The notes below the pieces were generated by a model. The model made no database searches, was not told the DNA's origin, and was given only the letters and a program-made list of their open reading frames with translations. Both the position numbers and the translations under genes were made by a program. A stretch of 64,000 nt of DNA. Origin: Pseudomonas moorei (GTDB lineage Bacteria; Pseudomonadota; Gammaproteobacteria; Pseudomonadales; Pseudomonadaceae). Positions 34,446 to 42,644 of this stretch are shown piece by piece (the first letter of the stretch is position 1; every line of letters begins with the position of its first letter). Location: contig NZ_VZPP01000016.1 in the NCBI RefSeq assembly GCF_008801475.1, positions 1 to 64,000 on the forward strand. The letters are read 5' to 3'.

Positions 34446-35084
34446 TCAATCGTCGGAGGTTTTGTGCTTGTATTCGCACAAATCTTCGATGCGGCAACTG
34501 CCACAGCGAGGCTTGCGGGCCAGGCATACGTAGCGCCCGTGAAGGATCAGCCAGTGATGGGAATCGAGCAGGTATTCCTTGGGCACGAATTTCATCAGCT
34601 TCTTTTCGACCTCCACCACATTCTTGCCAGGCGCGATGCCGGTGCGGTTGCTGACCCGAAAGATGTGGGTGTCCACGGCCATGGTCAGTTGGCGAAATGC
34701 GGTATTGAGCACCACGTTAGCCGTTTTGCGTCCCACGCCGGGCAGTGCTTCCAGTTCCTCGCGGGTTTGCGGCACTTCGCCAGCGTGGCGTTCCAGCAGC
34801 AAGCGACAGGTTTCGATCACGTTTTTTGCTTTGCTGTTGTACAGGCCGATGGTCTTGATGTATTCCGACAACCCTTCGACGCCCAAGGCGTAAATCGCCG
34901 CCGGGGTGTTGGCAACCGGGAACAGCTTTGCCGTGGCCTTGTTGACGCCGACATCGGTCGATTGTGCCGAAAGAATCACCGCGATCAGCAACTCGAACGG
35001 TGATGAGTAGGCCAGTTCGGTCTTTGGTTCCGGGTTGTCTTCATGCAGTCTGCGGAAAATTTCCAGACGTTTTGCGGCATTCAT
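34446..35084 (-). CDS. nth: Endonuclease III
   Basis: Bifunctional DNA glycosylase/AP lyase for oxidised pyrimidines. 212 aa. Helix-hairpin-helix LPGVGRKTANVV carries catalytic K120, and D138 lies in AVDTHIFRV, with the same numbering as E. coli Nth. The C-terminal [4Fe-4S] loop has the four Cys in CLARKPRCGSCRIEDLC. It ends the rnf gene cluster in the same order as other gammaproteobacteria. Confidence 0.97.
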   Translation of the reverse strand: MNAAKRLEIFRRLHEDNPEPKTELAYSSPFELLIAVILSAQSTDVGVNKATAKLFPVANTPAAIYALGVEGLSEYIKTIGLYNSKAKNVIETCRLLLERHAGEVPQTREELEALPGVGRKTANVVLNTAFRQLTMAVDTHIFRVSNRTGIAPGKNVVEVEKKLMKFVPKEYLLDSHHWLILHGRYVCLARKPRCGSCRIEDLCEYKHKTSDD

Positions 35085-35114: not shown

Positions 35115-35696
35115 TTAAGGTGCTGGACGGTGCCATATCTGCCAACCGGCAACCAGCATTCCCAACAGAATGAATCCTCCCGGGGCCAGTATGGCCAGGC
35201 GCAAGCCACCATCGGCGCTCAATGCCCAGCCCTGCCAATCCGCTTGCGCCGAACCGGCGAGCCAAGGCAGATGGCGAGCGATAGTCCCGTAGCCAATCAG
35301 CTCGCGTAGCAGGCCCAGGCCCGCCATCAGCACACCGAACACACCGCACATGCGCAAGCGATCGGCCAGTGAGCTCTGGAAATAACCGGAGTGTTCCAGC
35401 AGTACACATTGCACCGCGATCAAGCCTGCATACACGCCCATTTGTTGATGCCATTGCAGCGACCAGGCTTGTGCGCCGAGTTCTGCACAACTGGTTAATG
35501 TCGCAGCGATCAGCACGCTCGCCAAAAGGCGTGATGCGGACAGCAGTCGGGGCCGCAACGCGTTCATGCTCAGGCCAAAAGCACTGGTGACCGCCATGAA
35601 CATCAGCCACAAACCCACAGCGCTCACCAGTGAGCCAGTAGCGCCAATCAGTGGTGCCAACATCAGCGAGTTCTGCAGAAACGGTGACTTAATCAT
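35115..35696 (-). CDS. rnfE: Rnf electron transport complex subunit E
   Basis: Inner-membrane subunit with several hydrophobic segments, 193 aa from ATG 35696. NSLMLAPLIGATGSL near the start, a central GVYAGLIAVQCVLLEHSG, and LGLLRELIGYGT align with RnfE/RsxE. It is shorter and more divergent than E. coli RsxE. The start overlaps the rnfG stop by eight bases. The frame continues to 35753 but has no better start. Confidence 0.8.
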   Translation of the reverse strand: MIKSPFLQNSLMLAPLIGATGSLVSAVGLWLMFMAVTSAFGLSMNALRPRLLSASRLLASVLIAATLTSCAELGAQAWSLQWHQQMGVYAGLIAVQCVLLEHSGYFQSSLADRLRMCGVFGVLMAGLGLLRELIGYGTIARHLPWLAGSAQADWQGWALSADGGLRLAILAPGGFILLGMLVAGWQIWHRPAP

Positions 35697-36300
35697 GGGA
35701 CGCCCCCCCAAGCAGAGCTTGCCGGTGCTCATCGAAATAGCGCAGTGCGTCATGGGTGGCGTTAATCACCGCCCTTGAAGTGATGGTCGCCCCCGCGATC
35801 TGATCGAATTGTCCCTGATCCTTTTTTAGCGCCCAGCCGTTATCGCCCGGATCCGTACGAGACGTGCCGGAAAACAGTTGCAGCCAGGCGTTGGGCCAAT
35901 CGGCGATCCGGGCGCCAAGTCCCGGCGTTTCCGATTGCTTCAGGGTTTTGACCCCCACCAACCTGCCATGGGAGTCGATGGCGATCAGCAACTCGATGGC
36001 ACCGGCGTAGCCCAGGGTCTGGCTACGCAGTAAAACCGCGCAGGGTTGGCCGGATTTGCTTGCCAGGTAACCACTCAGCACTGTGCTATTGGCCAGCGCT
36101 GTGTCTTCGAGCGTGAGCGGCTTTTCCAGCGGTTGATTGTCATAACTGTCAGGCGGCAGCAGGTCTAGGAGGTTGCGACTGTCGATCAGGCGCTGCTCGT
36201 TCGCAATACGCGAAGCACTGCTGTGCTGCACAAAGTACGTCACGCCAATACCAAGGCATGCCAGCAGTGCCAGGATCGCAACACTCGATACTCTGTTCAT
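35689..36300 (-). CDS. rnfG: Rnf electron transport complex subunit G
   Basis: 203 aa. One N-terminal membrane anchor (VAILALLACLGIGVTYFV) leads to a periplasmic FMN-binding domain. The covalent-FMN motif is FDQIAGATITSRAVINA, with FMN expected on the Thr after GA. LKQSETPGLGARI is the other family block. The start ATG 36300 overlaps the rnfD stop by four bases (ATGA). A longer frame to 36693 is only the shadow of rnfD. Confidence 0.9.
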   Translation of the reverse strand: MNRVSSVAILALLACLGIGVTYFVQHSSASRIANEQRLIDSRNLLDLLPPDSYDNQPLEKPLTLEDTALANSTVLSGYLASKSGQPCAVLLRSQTLGYAGAIELLIAIDSHGRLVGVKTLKQSETPGLGARIADWPNAWLQLFSGTSRTDPGDNGWALKKDQGQFDQIAGATITSRAVINATHDALRYFDEHRQALLGGASHD

Positions 36301-37283
36301 GACACTGTCCGCTCCTGCCTGGACGCGACAAGCCGCTCCAGCGCCGGCACACACAGGTTCATCATCAGCACGGCAAACGCCACGCCGTCGGGGTAACCAC
36401 CCCAGGTGCGAATCAAATATGTCAGCAGCCCGACACCCACGCCAAACAGCAGTCGGGCGCCGGGGGTTTTCGCGCCGGACACCGGTTCCGTAACGATGAA
36501 AAACGCGCCCAGCATGCTGGCGCCGCTGAGCAGGTGAAACAGCGGCGAACCATGGGAATCGGAGCCCGAACCGTTCCAGCACAACAAACTGATAACGAAC
36601 AGGCTGGCGAGCATGCCAACCGGCGCGTGCCAACTGAACACGCGCTGTTGCAGCAAAAACGCGCCGCCCGCCAGAAACGCCAGATTCACCCATTCCACAC
36701 CTCGACCACCGAATTGGCCAAATGCAGGGTTGGTAGCGAACAGTTCATCCATGGTCAGGCTTTTGTTGATCCGCAAGCTGTCCAGCGCCGTGGCCTGAAC
36801 CCAGGCATCCGGCAACTGACCAATACTGAAAACCTGCTGAAGGCCACCCATCAGGTCCATGCCGTGGGAGGTTGGCCAGTGCGTCATTTGTTGCGGAAAC
36901 GTCACCAGCACCAAGGCAAAACCAAGCATTGCCGGATTGAATGGATTCTTGCCGACGCCGCCATACAAGTGCTTGCCGAACAGCATGGCTGAAGTGGCGG
37001 CACTGATCGTCAACCACCAAGGGCAGTAAGGCGGCAGAGCCAGGGCCAGCAATGTCGCGCTGACCAATGCACTGCCGTCGCTCAGGCTTGGCTTGAGTGA
37101 GCGCTTGCGCAACTTCAGCACAGCCGCTTCAGCGGCCAGAGTGCCTACTGCCGCCAGAACCAGATTGATCAGGACCCCCCAGCCATACAGCCAGAACAAC
37201 GCGAGCATGCCCGGCAGCGTTGCCAGGAGCACCCGCTGCATGGCCTGCTGAAGGCGCTCGTCGACCGGTTCAAGGGGCGGCAT
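36297..37283 (-). CDS. rnfD: Rnf electron transport complex subunit D
   Basis: 328-residue polytopic NqrB/RnfD-family protein. Family blocks: [18 protein letters not shown] (about 67-84), [20 protein letters not shown] (about 111), and the C-terminal [23 protein letters not shown] Thr in [11 protein letters not shown] is a possible covalent-FMN site. It begins within the end of rnfB, so nothing intervenes where rnfC would be expected. Confidence 0.92.
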
Positions 37284-38484
37284 GGGCGTTCACCTGACGC
37301 TCGGCTTCCTGCAGGCGAGCGCGGGCCTTTTCCATCAGTTCGGCGGGAGTATCGGCGCGACGTTCGAGTTTGCTGACGTCGGCCCTGGCATAGGCAAGTT
37401 CGGTCTTCAGTTGCCGAAGCTGGCTGTCGATCGGACGCTTTTCCACGCGAGCCAGGTCAGGCAAGGGTTGTTCACTGAGGGCCTCGGCGGCATGCAAGGC
37501 TTGCTCGGCCTCGCTGAGCGCGCGCTCCAGAGTTTCGATCTGTTCAGTGGGAGCTTGATGGGTCTGAGCTTTCTTGAGTTCGGCGCGGCGCATGGCCAAC
37601 TGGATCTTGGCCCGTTTCAGATCGGCATCTTTTACTGGCGTAACAGCGGGCGCCGGGGCGGGCACAGCCGTATTTTCCAGCTGCATCAAGGCTTGCTCGG
37701 CCGCCTCGAACTGCTGTTGCAGGACGATCAGTTGCGATTGCTGCTCGAAGGTCGGCGGATGGCCGAAGGCCTTGAGCGATTTGTTCAATTGCGCGCGGCT
37801 CATCGCCAGATCGATTTTGGCTTTTTTCAATGCTGCATCGGCAGTGGCGGCCTTCTGGGCGCGCACGCGTTCAAGGGCGGCCTGCACCGGGTCGAGCGTC
37901 GCTACGCTGGGTTGGGCGGCACGTTGCGCCCGGGCCTGGCGTTCGGCGGCCTTCAGTTCTTCTTCACGCTGCAACCGCGCATTGCGCTGCTCGAAACGGC
38001 GCCGTGCCCGATTACGTTTGGCTGTGCGGGCGCGTTGTTCTTCAAGGCTGAATGCCAGGCCTCCAACAATCGGCAGCACTGTGGATATCGGCAACGGACG
38101 CATTTCAATGCAATCGACAGGGCAGGGTGCCACGCAGAGGTCGCAACCGGTGCACTCGTCGATGATGACCGTGTGCATCAGTTTGGCCGCGCCGACGATG
38201 GCGTCTACCGGGCAGGCCTGGATGCATTTGGTGCAACCGATGCATTCGGCCTCGCGAATATAGGCGATCTGCGCCGGAGCCGAACCACGGCTGGTGTCCA
38301 GTTCCAGCACCGGTACGTGCAGCAGTTCGGCCAGGGCGTTGATGGTTTCGCTGCCGCCCGGCGGGCACTTGTTGATGGGCTCGCCGTTGGCGATACCTTC
38401 GGCGTAGGGCTTGCATCCGGGATGGCCGCACTTGCCGCATTGAGTCTGTGGCAAGAGGGCATCGATGCTTTGAATCAGACTCAT
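37270..38484 (-). CDS. rnfB: Rnf complex ferredoxin subunit B with long coiled-coil tail
   Basis: 404 aa, about twice E. coli RsxB. A four-Cys cluster domain ([20 protein letters not shown]...NKCPPGG, about 13-45) is followed by two 4Fe-4S ferredoxin motifs ([17 protein letters not shown] and [19 protein letters not shown], about 80-130). The N-terminal membrane helix of RsxB appears missing. From about 145 the chain is a charged Ala/Lys/Glu/Arg coiled coil with three imperfect repeats ([51 protein letters not shown]). Such tails are better known at the C-terminus of RnfC, which is absent here. Confidence 0.88.
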
Positions 38485-39050
38485 GTTTTGATCAGTCCGC
38501 TGAATCCGAGAAAGGCCACCGCGATCAGGCCGGCGCTGATCAGATCGATCGGCAAGCCGCGGAAGGGCAGGGGGATATCATTATTGAGTGTGCGTTGGCG
38601 CAGGTCTTGAAACAGGCTCAGCACCAGCCAGAAGCCCAGCCCGGCACCCAGGCTCATGGCCGTGGCGTGAAAGAATCCATGGTCATCCTCGACGTTGATC
38701 AGCGCTACGCCAAGCACGCCCGCATTGCCCAGCAGCAACAGCCAGAGACCATCGAAGGAAAGTGTCGGGAGCATCCGCCCCAGCAATTTCAGCAACGGAG
38801 TGATCAACAACACGCTCAATGGCAGAAACACAAACAGACGCAGTGACGCCATGTCCAGCGGCACCAGCAACCAGTGGTAGAGCGCGTAGCCGAGTATGCC
38901 GGCGATCAGCATCAAGCAGGTGGTCGCGATGCCGAGTGCATGGACCTGCTGACGCTCGCTGCCCAACAGCGGATCGACGCCCAGCGGCGAGTGCAACACG
39001 AGGTTGTTGATCAAGGCTGCACTGACAAGTGTAAGGAGCGTTTCGGTCAT
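38481..39050 (-). CDS. rnfA: Rnf electron transport complex subunit A
   Basis: 189-residue inner-membrane protein with about six hydrophobic segments. [23 protein letters not shown] near the start and [16 protein letters not shown] with [21 protein letters not shown] are RnfA/RsxA family blocks. First gene of the operon; its stop overlaps the rnfB start (ATGA). It is divergent in sequence from E. coli RsxA, like the other subunits here. Confidence 0.88.
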
Positions 39051-39195: not shown

Positions 39196-41247
39196 TTACT
39201 TGATCCGCTGGCCAGGCTTGGCGCCGCTGTCAGGGCTCAGCAGGTAGATTTCTTCACCGCCGGGACCCGCCGCCATGACCATGCCCTCGGAGATCCCGAA
39301 CTTCATTTTGCGAGGCTTGAGGTTGGCGATCATCATGGTCAGCCGACCATCGAGCTTGGACGGGTCCGGGTAAGCACTCTTGATGCCGGAGAATACGTTG
39401 CGTTGCTCGTCACCGATGTCGAGGGTCAGGCGCAACAGCTTGTCGGCCCCTTCCACGTGTTCGGCCTTGACGATCAGGGCGACGCGCAGGTCGACCGCCG
39501 CAAAGGTATCGAACTCGATTTCCGGTGACAGCGGGTCCTTGGCCAGTTCGCCATTGCCGGCCGGTGCAGCTGCGCCGGTATCGGTCTGACTGGCGGTCAG
39601 GTCTTCTTTCGAAGCATCGGTCATGGCTTGCACTTTGACCGGGTCGATACGGGTCATCAGCGCCTTGAACTCGTTCAGCTGATGGTTGCCGAGCAAGGTC
39701 GCATGGTCGTTCCAGGTCAGCGGGGCGACGTTGAGGAACGCCTCGGCGTCGGCGGCCAGCAGCGGCAGGACCGGCTTGAGGAAGATCACCAGTTGGCGGA
39801 ACAGATTGACGCCCGTGGCGCAGATGGCCTGGACCTCGTCCTGCTTGCCTTCCTGTTTGTTCAGCGACCACGGTGCCTTGTCGGCGATCCAGGCGTTGGC
39901 GCGGTCGGCCAGGCCCATGATCTCGCGCATGGCGCGGGCGAAGTCGCGGGCTTCATAGGCGTCGGCGATGCCTGGCGCGGCGGCCAGGAACGCATCGGTC
40001 AGTTCCGGCGCGGCGTTGGTGTCGACCATCACGCCGGCATTGCCTTTGTGGATGAAGCCGGCGCAACGGCTGGCGATGTTGACGACTTTGCCCACCAGGT
40101 CGGAGTTGACCTTCTGCACAAAGTCTTCGAGGTTCAGGTCGAGGTCATCGACGCCACGGCTCAGCTTGGCCGCGTAGTAGTAGCGCAGGTATTCCGGCGA
40201 CAGGTGGTCCAGATAGGTCCGGGCCTTGATGAAAGTGCCGCGGGACTTGGACATTTTTTGACCGTTGACGGTCAGGTAGCCGTGCACGTTGATGCCGGTC
40301 GGCTTGCGGTAGCCCGCACCCTCAAGCATCGCTGGCCAGAACAGGGCGTGGAAGTTGACGATGTCCTTGCCGATGAAATGATACAGCTCGGCGGTGGAGT
40401 CCTTGCCCCAGAACGCATCGAAGTCCAGCTCCGGCGTGCGGTTGCACAGGTTCTTGAAGCTCGCCATGTAGCCGATCGGTGCGTCCAGCCAGACGTAGAA
40501 GTATTTGCCCGGCTCGTCGGGGATCTCGAAACCGAAGTACGGCGCATCGCGGGAGATGTCCCACTGTTGCAGGCCCGCGTCCAGCCACTCGGCGATCTTG
40601 TTGGCGACGGCGTCTTGCAGGGTGCCGCTGCGGGTCCAGGTTTGCAGCATTTCCTGGAAGTCCGGCAACTTGAAGAAGAAATGCTGGGAATCCTTGAGTA
40701 CCGGGGTGGCACCGGAAATCGCCGACTTCGGATCTTTCAGGTCGGTCGGTGCGTAGGTCGCGCCGCATTTTTCGCAGTTATCGCCGTACTGGTCTTCTGT
40801 GCCGCATTTCGGGCAAGTGCCCTTGATGAAGCGGTCGGCCAGGAACATTTTCTTTTCCGGGTCGAAATACTGGGTGATCGAGCGGGTGGCGATGTGCCCG
40901 GCGTCCCGCAGCTTCAGATAGATCTGGCTCGACAGCTCACGGTTTTCTTCGGCGTGAGTGGAGTGGAAGTTGTCGAAGTCCACCAGGAAATCGGCAAAGT
41001 CGGCGCTATGTTCAGCCTGGACGTTGGCGATCAGTTGTTCCGGGGTGATGCCTTCTTTTTCCGCGCGCAGCATGATCGCCGAACCGTGGGCGTCGTCGGC
41101 GCAGACATAAATGCATTGGTTGCCGCGGTGCTTCTGGAAGCGCACCCACATATCGGTCTGGATATATTCCAGCATATGGCCGAGGTGGATCGAACCATTG
41201 GCATAGGGCAGGGCGCTGGTGACGAGAATCTTGCGTGGCTCGGACAT
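39196..41247 (-). CDS. metG: Methionyl-tRNA synthetase
   Basis: Class I synthetase, 683 aa. The HIGH motif is H21-LGH24 ([10 protein letters not shown]), and KMSKS is in [11 protein letters not shown] (about 335). A zinc knuckle CPKC...CEKC lies at about 146-162. The C-terminal EMAP/Trbp111-type tRNA-binding domain (about 580-683; [26 protein letters not shown]) is fused, as in E. coli. Divergent from apbC, as often in gammaproteobacteria. Confidence 0.97.
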
Positions 41248-41467: not shown

Positions 41468-41549
41468 GGCAACTTTCCAGCCTCGCCACAAATCCGTGTC
41501 CGGCGTAGGATACCCGCCTGATTTTCCAGTCTTGTTATCGGAGTTGCCC

Positions 41550-42644
41550 ATGAGCGCCGTCAATCGCGCAGCGGTGGAAGCCGTTCTTCGCCAGTACACC
41601 GACCCTTATCTGAACCAGGACCCGGTCAGCGCCGGATGTGTGCGCAGCATCGATATTGCTGGCGACCGCGTCAGCGTCCAGCTCGAACTGGGCTATGCCG
41701 CCGGCCTGTTCAAAAGTGGCTGGGCGCAAATGTTGCAGATGGCTATCGAAGGCCTGGACGGCGTGACGACTGCGCGTGTCGAGATCACCAGCGTGATTGC
41801 CGCGCACAAGGCCCAGGCTCAGATTCCCGGTCTGGCCAACGTCAAGAACGTGGTCGCCGTGGCGTCCGGCAAGGGGGGCGTGGGCAAATCCACCACTGCT
41901 GCCAACCTGGCATTGGCGCTGGCTCGCGAAGGCGCCAAAGTGGGCATTCTGGATGCGGACATTTACGGTCCAAGCCAGGGCATCATGTTCGGCATCGCCG
42001 AAGGCACCCGGCCGCAGATCAAGGATCAGAAATGGTTCGTGCCGATCCAGTCCCATGGTGTCGAAGTGATGTCCATGGCGTTCCTGACCGACGACAACAC
42101 GCCGATGGTCTGGCGTGGGCCGATGGTCTCCGGCGCCTTGTTGCAACTGGTGACACAGACCGCATGGGGCGATCTGGATTACCTGGTGATCGACATGCCG
42201 CCAGGCACCGGTGACATCCAGCTGACCCTGGCGCAGAAAGTCCCTGTGGCCGGTGCGGTGATCGTTACCACGCCGCAAGACCTGGCCTTGCTCGACGCGC
42301 GCAAGGGCGTGGAAATGTTCCGCAAAGTGAACATTCCGGTGCTCGGCGTGGTAGAAAACATGGCCGTGCACATCTGCTCCAACTGCGGACATGCCGAGCA
42401 TCTGTTCGGTGAGGGCGGTGGTGTGAAGTTGGCCAACCAGTATGGCGTTGAACTGCTGGCTTCATTGCCGCTGGCGATGGCTATCCGTGAACAGGCCGAC
42501 GGTGGCAAGCCAACGGTGATCGCCGAGCCGGACAGCCCGATTGCGCTGGTCTACCAGGAGCTCGCCCGCCATGTCGGCGCGCGCATCGTGTTGCAGGAAG
42601 CTGCGACGCCGGCGATGCCGAACATCACTGTCAGCGACGATTGA
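41550..42644 (+). CDS. apbC: Iron-sulfur cluster carrier ATPase ApbC/Mrp
   Basis: 364 aa. An N-terminal DUF59 (MIP18-like) domain (about 1-90) precedes a ParA/MinD-type P-loop ATPase with deviant Walker A VASGKGGVGKSTTAANLA (about 100). DMPPGTGDIQLTLAQK is the Walker B region. The CxxC pair in HICSNCGHAEHLF binds the transferable Fe-S cluster. ATG 41550 gives the family start; the frame upstream to 41496 is not used. Confidence 0.95.
   Translation: MSAVNRAAVEAVLRQYTDPYLNQDPVSAGCVRSIDIAGDRVSVQLELGYAAGLFKSGWAQMLQMAIEGLDGVTTARVEITSVIAAHKAQAQIPGLANVKNVVAVASGKGGVGKSTTAANLALALAREGAKVGILDADIYGPSQGIMFGIAEGTRPQIKDQKWFVPIQSHGVEVMSMAFLTDDNTPMVWRGPMVSGALLQLVTQTAWGDLDYLVIDMPPGTGDIQLTLAQKVPVAGAVIVTTPQDLALLDARKGVEMFRKVNIPVLGVVENMAVHICSNCGHAEHLFGEGGGVKLANQYGVELLASLPLAMAIREQADGGKPTVIAEPDSPIALVYQELARHVGARIVLQEAATPAMPNITVSDD

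Follow-up and report, generated by a model that had tools for sequence, protein, structure and literature searches.

An rnfC-less Rnf operon that probably no longer pumps ions and moves electrons outward in many Pseudomonas

The stretch of DNA analysed here, 64,000 nucleotides of Pseudomonas moorei (contig NZ_VZPP01000016.1 of assembly GCF_008801475.1, positions 1 to 64,000; hereafter the window), carries on its minus strand an rnf operon without a gene for RnfC, in the order metG-rnfABDGE-nth. Family models recognised each rnf gene and nth, and RnfA, RnfD, RnfG and RnfE were also aligned to solved chains. A diverged rnfA (38481..39050, 189 residues) is followed by rnfB (37270..38484, 404 residues), rnfD (36297..37283, 328 residues), rnfG (35689..36300, 203 residues) and a diverged rnfE (35115..35696, 193 residues). 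RnfA and RnfE both scored far under the cut-offs of their family models (120 against 229 bits and 70 against 213 bits, respectively); in RnfD, PF03116 was the only domain matched, and there is no fused domain for binding nicotinamide adenine dinucleotide (NAD). The locus is anchored by two constant neighbours, downstream nth for endonuclease III (34446..35084) and upstream a gene at 39196..41247 that we take from its sequence to be metG and that was used as query for reading the locus in other genomes. A sequence-only reading of this DNA had claimed the gene set rnfA-rnfB-rnfD-rnfG-rnfE-nth without rnfC, which coordinates and family models bear out, and had noted that rnfD begins within the end of rnfB and leaves no space for rnfC; the two genes do overlap, by 14 nt. 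Its claim of ATGA overlaps at all junctions holds at rnfA/rnfB and rnfD/rnfG only: besides the 14-nt overlap of rnfB and rnfD, rnfG and rnfE overlap by 8 nt, and rnfE and nth are spaced by 30 nt.

The genome of the host is a draft of 59 contigs (6.47 Mb, completeness 100). A whole-genome profile search for RnfC, which the same reading had suggested, found no rnfC: RnfC_N (PF13375) had zero matches, and the rnfC model TIGR01945 had three, all under the cut-off and at most 55 bits, which are presumably of the NuoF type. With these results, an intact rnfC elsewhere in the host genome was rejected. The comparison across Pseudomonas that the reading had also suggested, made on 298 genomes drawn from the genus, showed the rnfC-less operon to be genus-wide, with the canonical type in other genomes. 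rnfC scored over the cut-off in 43 of the 298; by bit score, 37 of these are of the canonical type (>600 bits) and 6 have a second type only (372-567 bits). Three genomes (G022, G021 and G093) carry the derived, rnfC-less operon between metG and nth (L115, L116 and L110) together with a second-type rnfC elsewhere; the two kinds coexist there. rnfD was over the cut-off in 211 genomes, matched at any score in 216 and had no match in 82. Subtracting from the 216 the 37 canonical genomes, three (G001, G147, G164) whose weak rnfD-family matches (~1e-55) we assume to be NqrB, and three (G057, G072, G103) without the fused RnfB described below, we estimate that about 173 of the 298 genomes contain the RnfC-less operon.

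We read 34 derived loci directly (the window, L064-L083 and L104-L116). No rnfC lies between rnfB and rnfD in any of 20 derived loci with otherwise identical genes (in L071, nth is listed ahead of rnfE since its stop-to-stop frame begins earlier). Among the named loci, the best 80 of 474 RnfB relatives from named genomes, all Pseudomonas and including P. koreensis, P. lini, P. frederiksbergensis and P. fluorescens, 71 have the genes A-B-D-G-E between metG and nth (two truncated by a contig end, one with a fragmented rnfG) and 9 have metG-B-nth; all come from assemblies other than that of the window, and P. koreensis DSM 16610 (L185) and P. lini DSM 16768 (L247) are among those with the derived operon. 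In a tree of RnfD, all 31 derived rows used formed one clade (100/100) adjoining the canonical Pseudomonadaceae; L104-L106, in which rnfD is split, were excluded from this tree and from the selection analysis. The rnfC-less operon is a genus-wide state and no strain defect. An assembly gap or a strain-specific deletion, which the draft state of the host genome favours and nothing else does, is refuted by the identical rnfC-less gene set in the 20 derived and 71 of the 80 named loci, and we give it practically no probability. In the literature searched, which covered passages of Creative Commons-licensed papers in PubMed Central (PMC), the loss of rnfC from Pseudomonas was not found described.

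The absence of rnfC, as claimed in the sequence-only reading, applies to its core; the C-terminal tail survives, fused to RnfB. The protein encoded by rnfB in the window (hereafter the fused RnfB) consists of the RnfB ferredoxin without its N-terminal membrane helix (residues 1-130, 38095..38484) and an RnfC-type C-terminal tail (from about residue 147, 37270..38046), which aligns in frame with the part of canonical Pseudomonas RnfC that follows its iron-sulphur domain (about 185 residues at 49-54% identity, best match per canonical genome, E 1e-34 to 1e-39). With this tail as query in six canonical whole genomes, 16 of 16 matches (E up to 0.001) fell inside the rnfC frame, and for 7 of 7 RnfC tails its local score was 28-32 standard deviations over that of shuffled tails. 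A chance or low-complexity match was rejected, because shuffling or reversing the tail lowers the score strongly and the whole-genome matches lie only in rnfC. By hydropathy, a membrane helix precedes the RnfB ferredoxin in 7 of 7 canonical Pseudomonas and 12 of 12 other canonical loci (19/19) but in none of the 34 derived and none of 20 orphan RnfB proteins, the latter encoded without RnfADGE (one derived and one orphan protein have an open frame too short to hold such a helix). The 13 conserved cysteines of the ferredoxin part are kept in all 34 derived loci. PRK06991 spans residues 2-269 of the fused RnfB at 244.8 bits, under its curated cut-off of 281. An AlphaFold model of this protein alone, built without an alignment, had a mean predicted local distance difference test score (pLDDT) of 64 and stayed below 50 over the greater part of the ferredoxin; in this low-confidence model the tail is predicted to be helical. 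The simplest history would be that the RnfC core was deleted in frame, joining the RnfB ferredoxin to the RnfC tail, and that the start of RnfB was lost. In A. vinelandii, a C-terminal helix of RnfC contacts RnfB, with a function described as not yet understood (PMC12174285). The fusion suggests a possible use for the long RnfC tail, namely as a docking arm that has been retained without its enzyme.

The [2Fe-2S] cluster of A. woodii Rnf is ligated by Cys25 and Cys113 of RnfA and Cys25 and Cys108 of RnfE, and mutation of residues at the cluster or flavin sites abolished ferredoxin:NAD activity (PMC11889175). We mapped these positions by alignment to the chains of 9eri, whose numbering fits the A. 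woodii residues. On the minus strand of the window, RnfA has Asp26 (codon 38973-38975) at the Cys25 position and Ala110 (codon 38721-38723) at the Cys113 position; RnfE has Ala14 (codon 35655-35657) at the Cys25 position and keeps Cys97 (codon 35406-35408) at the Cys108 position, so that one of the four cysteines is left. In the 34 derived loci, Cys is found at neither RnfA position nor at the first RnfE position (one gap), and 32 have it at the second RnfE position; likewise, none of the 71 named loci has Cys at any of the first three positions (one gap), and 70 have it at the fourth, the remaining one showing a gap. The first RnfA position is Asp in 29 of the 34 and 66 of the 71 loci. All four cysteines are found in 7 of 7 canonical Pseudomonas loci and in 11 of 12 other canonical loci (the exception being L163). 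Judged from these residues, the intramembrane [2Fe-2S] site of RnfA and RnfE is lost, with three of its four ligands replaced. Because the ligands are missing, an alternative partner taking the place of RnfC could not run the usual loop.

RseC (PF04246) is also missing: a profile search found no match in the host genome. In the genus, RseC was found in 37 of the 298 genomes, comprising 36 of the 37 canonical genomes and one derived genome, G123, the only one with RseC among the 179 other genomes bearing rnfD. The canonical genome without RseC (G284) is an assembly 86% complete. In G123, RseC (L274, contig C135, 25886-26287) is the only one accompanied by a derived operon among the 298 genomes, and it has Trp at the last of three cysteines common to the five relatives read. 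In a draw of 150 phylum genomes, 82 had both RseC and rnfC, 5 had only rnfC (G339, G331, G408, G380 and G412), 7 had only RseC and 56 had neither. All 15 RseC-positive genomes that were read keep every readable cluster Cys (in G308 and G349 the reading covered RnfA). Outside the genus, L163 (G339) has an operon with rnfC in which two of the four cluster cysteines are lost, and RseC was not detected; this is an independent, partial version of the same joint loss. RseC has been described in E. coli as part of a SoxR-reducing system (PMC11729352); in C. ljungdahlii it is described as regulating or possibly stabilising Rnf (PMC9124969). NqrM seems to perform the cluster step for NQR (PMC12174285). 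By analogy, RseC may do for the Rnf cluster what NqrM seems to do for NQR.

The flavin attachment sites of RnfD and RnfG, by contrast with the cluster, have been kept, and with them the flavin transferase ApbE. In the window, the threonines of the flavin mononucleotide (FMN) sites, Thr165 of RnfD (codon 36789-36791) and Thr172 of RnfG (codon 35785-35787), are conserved on alignment to the solved proteins. The FMN Thr is present in 34 of 34 derived loci for RnfG and in 33 for RnfD (Ser once), the RnfG Tyr in 33 and the riboflavin-site Asn of RnfD in 34; all 71 named loci have the GATxTS motif of RnfG. apbE is present in the host genome, in all 216 genus genomes with an rnfD match, as against 16 of the 82 without one, and in 173 of 173 that have an rnfD match but no rnfC over the cut-off. 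We compared selection by the ratio of nonsynonymous to synonymous substitution rates (dN/dS), as medians of pairwise Nei-Gojobori estimates on related sequences, with pairs of dS outside 0.05-1.3 dropped and the canonical values resting on 7 loci (8-21 pairs). RnfA (0.38 in derived vs 0.05 in canonical loci) and RnfE (0.61 vs 0.15) were strongly relaxed, RnfD (0.26 vs 0.17) and RnfG (0.43 vs 0.34) little relaxed and nth (0.06 vs 0.09) not relaxed.

Rnf in many Pseudomonas probably no longer pumps ions and instead moves electrons outward. With the core of RnfC absent and the cluster ligands of RnfA and RnfE lost, the electron loop of Rnf appears to be cut twice. Without the membrane cluster, RnfB would be unable to reduce RnfG by the Rnf route, and without RnfC, RnfD would have no NAD partner; the ion-pumping loop (cytosol to membrane cluster to periplasm to NAD) would thus be gone. 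The redox sites remaining would be riboflavin (if its site survives a change from Asp to Glu), the FMN of RnfD, the FMN of RnfG and the soluble ferredoxin of the fused RnfB. We propose that this soluble RnfB would be held at the former position of RnfC by RnfC's own tail and that electrons would pass from it to the riboflavin and then the FMN of RnfD and on to the FMN of RnfG at the periplasmic face. Such a path would be half of the old route, taken one way in the known reverse direction of Rnf, with RnfA and RnfE persisting as a scaffold and the lost role of RseC presumably tied to the [2Fe-2S] site, like that of NqrM in Nqr. The sequence-only reading was judged right in its idea that RnfB might act directly or that another donor is needed. 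Its overall interpretation stands for the five genes without rnfC; it missed the tail fusion, the loss of the anchor, of the cluster ligands and of RseC. That the operon is a reduced, rewired descendant of Rnf acting as a one-way conduit from the fused RnfB through RnfD and RnfG to the periplasm is the reading we prefer, tentatively and at slightly less than an even chance. We hold as rather doubtful the fuller proposal that fusion to the RnfC tail, by placing RnfB at the RnfC site, turned a half-Rnf into a one-way ferredoxin-to-periplasm flavin conduit, and that the joint loss of RseC and cluster cysteines, seen also in G339, marks RseC as a factor that builds or needs the [2Fe-2S] cluster of RnfA and RnfE.

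Several results weigh against this conduit and against the role given to RseC. At the riboflavin site of RnfD, 32 of 34 derived loci have Glu in place of Asp (2 gaps; in the window Glu266 at the Asp249 position, codon 36486-36488), so that loss or retuning of riboflavin is possible. Constraint on the RnfB ferredoxin is moderately relaxed too (dN/dS 0.13 in derived vs 0.04 in canonical loci). In L104, L105 and L106 (G034, G262 and G268), rnfD is broken over two or three frames, by decay or sequencing error, and rnfB reads through in two of them. We know of no electron acceptor at the periplasmic face and of no donor to RnfB. As to RseC, 7 of the 150 phylum genomes noted above have it without rnfC over the cut-off; G331 and G408, outside the genus, have rnfC and all four cluster cysteines with no RseC detected, and G380 and G412, also without detected RseC, keep two readable RnfA cysteines. 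These four are drafts, yet they count against a strict link between RseC and the cluster. The RseC of E. coli can do without one of its three cysteines (PMC11729352), so the change in G123 alone does not prove a dead protein. Finally, because of shared descent, the genomes counted for apbE and RseC are not independent observations.

The strongest objection comes from the fused RnfB on its own. Among 20 of the 82 rnfD-less genomes tested for it, 17 had a strong match, 2 had none and 1 had a weak match only. In those 17 loci, in L101-L103 and in the 9 named loci mentioned above, the fused RnfB lies between metG and nth without RnfADGE. The orphan proteins are under selection (median omega 0.175 over the untrimmed region), and one orphan locus, L085, retains a 32-residue rnfE match (21.5 bits) upstream of nth. 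In a tree of metG and nth (a quick method without bootstrap, using 60 of 68 loci after those with too little metG and nth were dropped), the state with the fused RnfB alone must have changed at least 4 times to fit the well-supported branches. This tree also places the derived L107, L108, L111, L112 and L114 among canonical loci, contrary to the RnfD tree, a conflict suggesting that the operon may have moved between lineages. Since RnfADGE were lost on several branches while the fused RnfB persisted, RnfB is not dedicated to RnfD. The fused RnfB has a use that does not require RnfADGE, and this is the main result to set against the conduit. Of 8 loci read from other families, 6 likewise have an anchorless RnfB next to nth or metG (L154 and L159 have neither neighbour), and in a tree of the RnfB domain the derived RnfB groups with these proteins (86/96); with 122 columns, this tree is compatible with one or several origins of the anchorless form. 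In L160 and L161 (G390 and G386) and L145 (G328), metG is followed by a short anchorless RnfB without a tail, and no other rnf genes were detected in the stretch.

These observations fit an alternative in which the conserved unit is the soluble fused RnfB acting with endonuclease III or another cytosolic iron-sulphur protein, and the membrane genes are departing relics, still expressed because they are located between metG and nth. The relaxed RnfA and RnfE and the split rnfD of three genomes agree with it; however, near-canonical constraint on RnfD and RnfG, kept flavin sites and complete co-occurrence with apbE are unexpected of a relic, and nth adjoins rnfE also in the canonical loci read, so the neighbourhood by itself proves nothing. 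We regard this alternative as unlikely, although a serious one. It is far less probable that RnfA and RnfE were repurposed, for instance as a transporter or as a site for another metal using Asp of RnfA and Cys of RnfE: the prevalence of both residues, counted above, speaks for it, but both proteins are relaxed as a whole, and a metal role is putative. Comparably improbable is a complex that still reduces SoxR or pumps ions, with another NADH dehydrogenase replacing RnfC in trans. In its favour, the five subunits that are left can still be recognised, and Rsx is described as a SoxR reducer in E. coli (PMC11729352); against this stand the three missing [2Fe-2S] ligands, RseC not being found and the anchorless RnfB. 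Moreover, the host genome has one rnfD-family match only, so no second system of the NqrB type is seen, and a second Nqr or Rnf system there was rejected.

Compared with the Rnf complex (RnfABCDGE; solved chains 9eri, 7zc6 and 8ahx), the Pseudomonas operon has homologous RnfA, RnfB ferredoxin, RnfD, RnfG and RnfE, an identical order apart from C, and kept flavin sites; it differs in having no RnfC core, an anchorless RnfB with an RnfC tail, and neither the [2Fe-2S] ligands nor RseC. In the Rnf complex, RnfC bears an NAD/FMN site and two [4Fe-4S] clusters, and ferredoxin:NAD activity is coupled to ion transport. The SoxR-reducing Rsx system of E. coli has RseC, unlike the host genome. Two-subunit flavinylated conduits resembling Nqr and Rnf have been proposed to carry electrons one way from the cytosol to extracytosolic flavin through RnfD- and RnfG-type subunits (PMC10979944). 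Those conduits fuse the RnfD-type subunit to an NAD-binding domain, whereas in the Pseudomonas operon a separate ferredoxin would act as donor and RnfA and RnfE are still present. Na+-NQR has been proposed to descend from Rnf by loss of one electron module and recruitment of another (PMC4014512); it lost RnfB and kept NqrA as a relic of RnfC, whereas here the RnfC core was lost and RnfB kept, and it retains the [2Fe-2S] cluster that the derived operon does not. The models for RsxB/RnfB without the membrane part (NCBIfam PRK06991 and PRK08764) match loci outside the genus that include anchorless RnfB beside nth. Such loci showed no RnfADGE in the stretch read, and the tails of their RnfB have little or no similarity to the Pseudomonas tail, L131 (22 bits) being the only match.

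The loop of Rnf thus appears separable in nature, the NADH module being lost jointly with the membrane cluster and RseC, and the flavin module being retained jointly with ApbE. This separation shows which accessory protein may serve which cofactor and offers a direct test of the role of RseC. Annotations of 'rnf' in many Pseudomonas should not be taken to mean an ion pump or a ferredoxin-reducing system. Beside metG, and near this operon with its iron-sulphur proteins, a gene at 41496-42644 of the window begins divergently; it encodes a putative ATPase of the Mrp/ApbC type.

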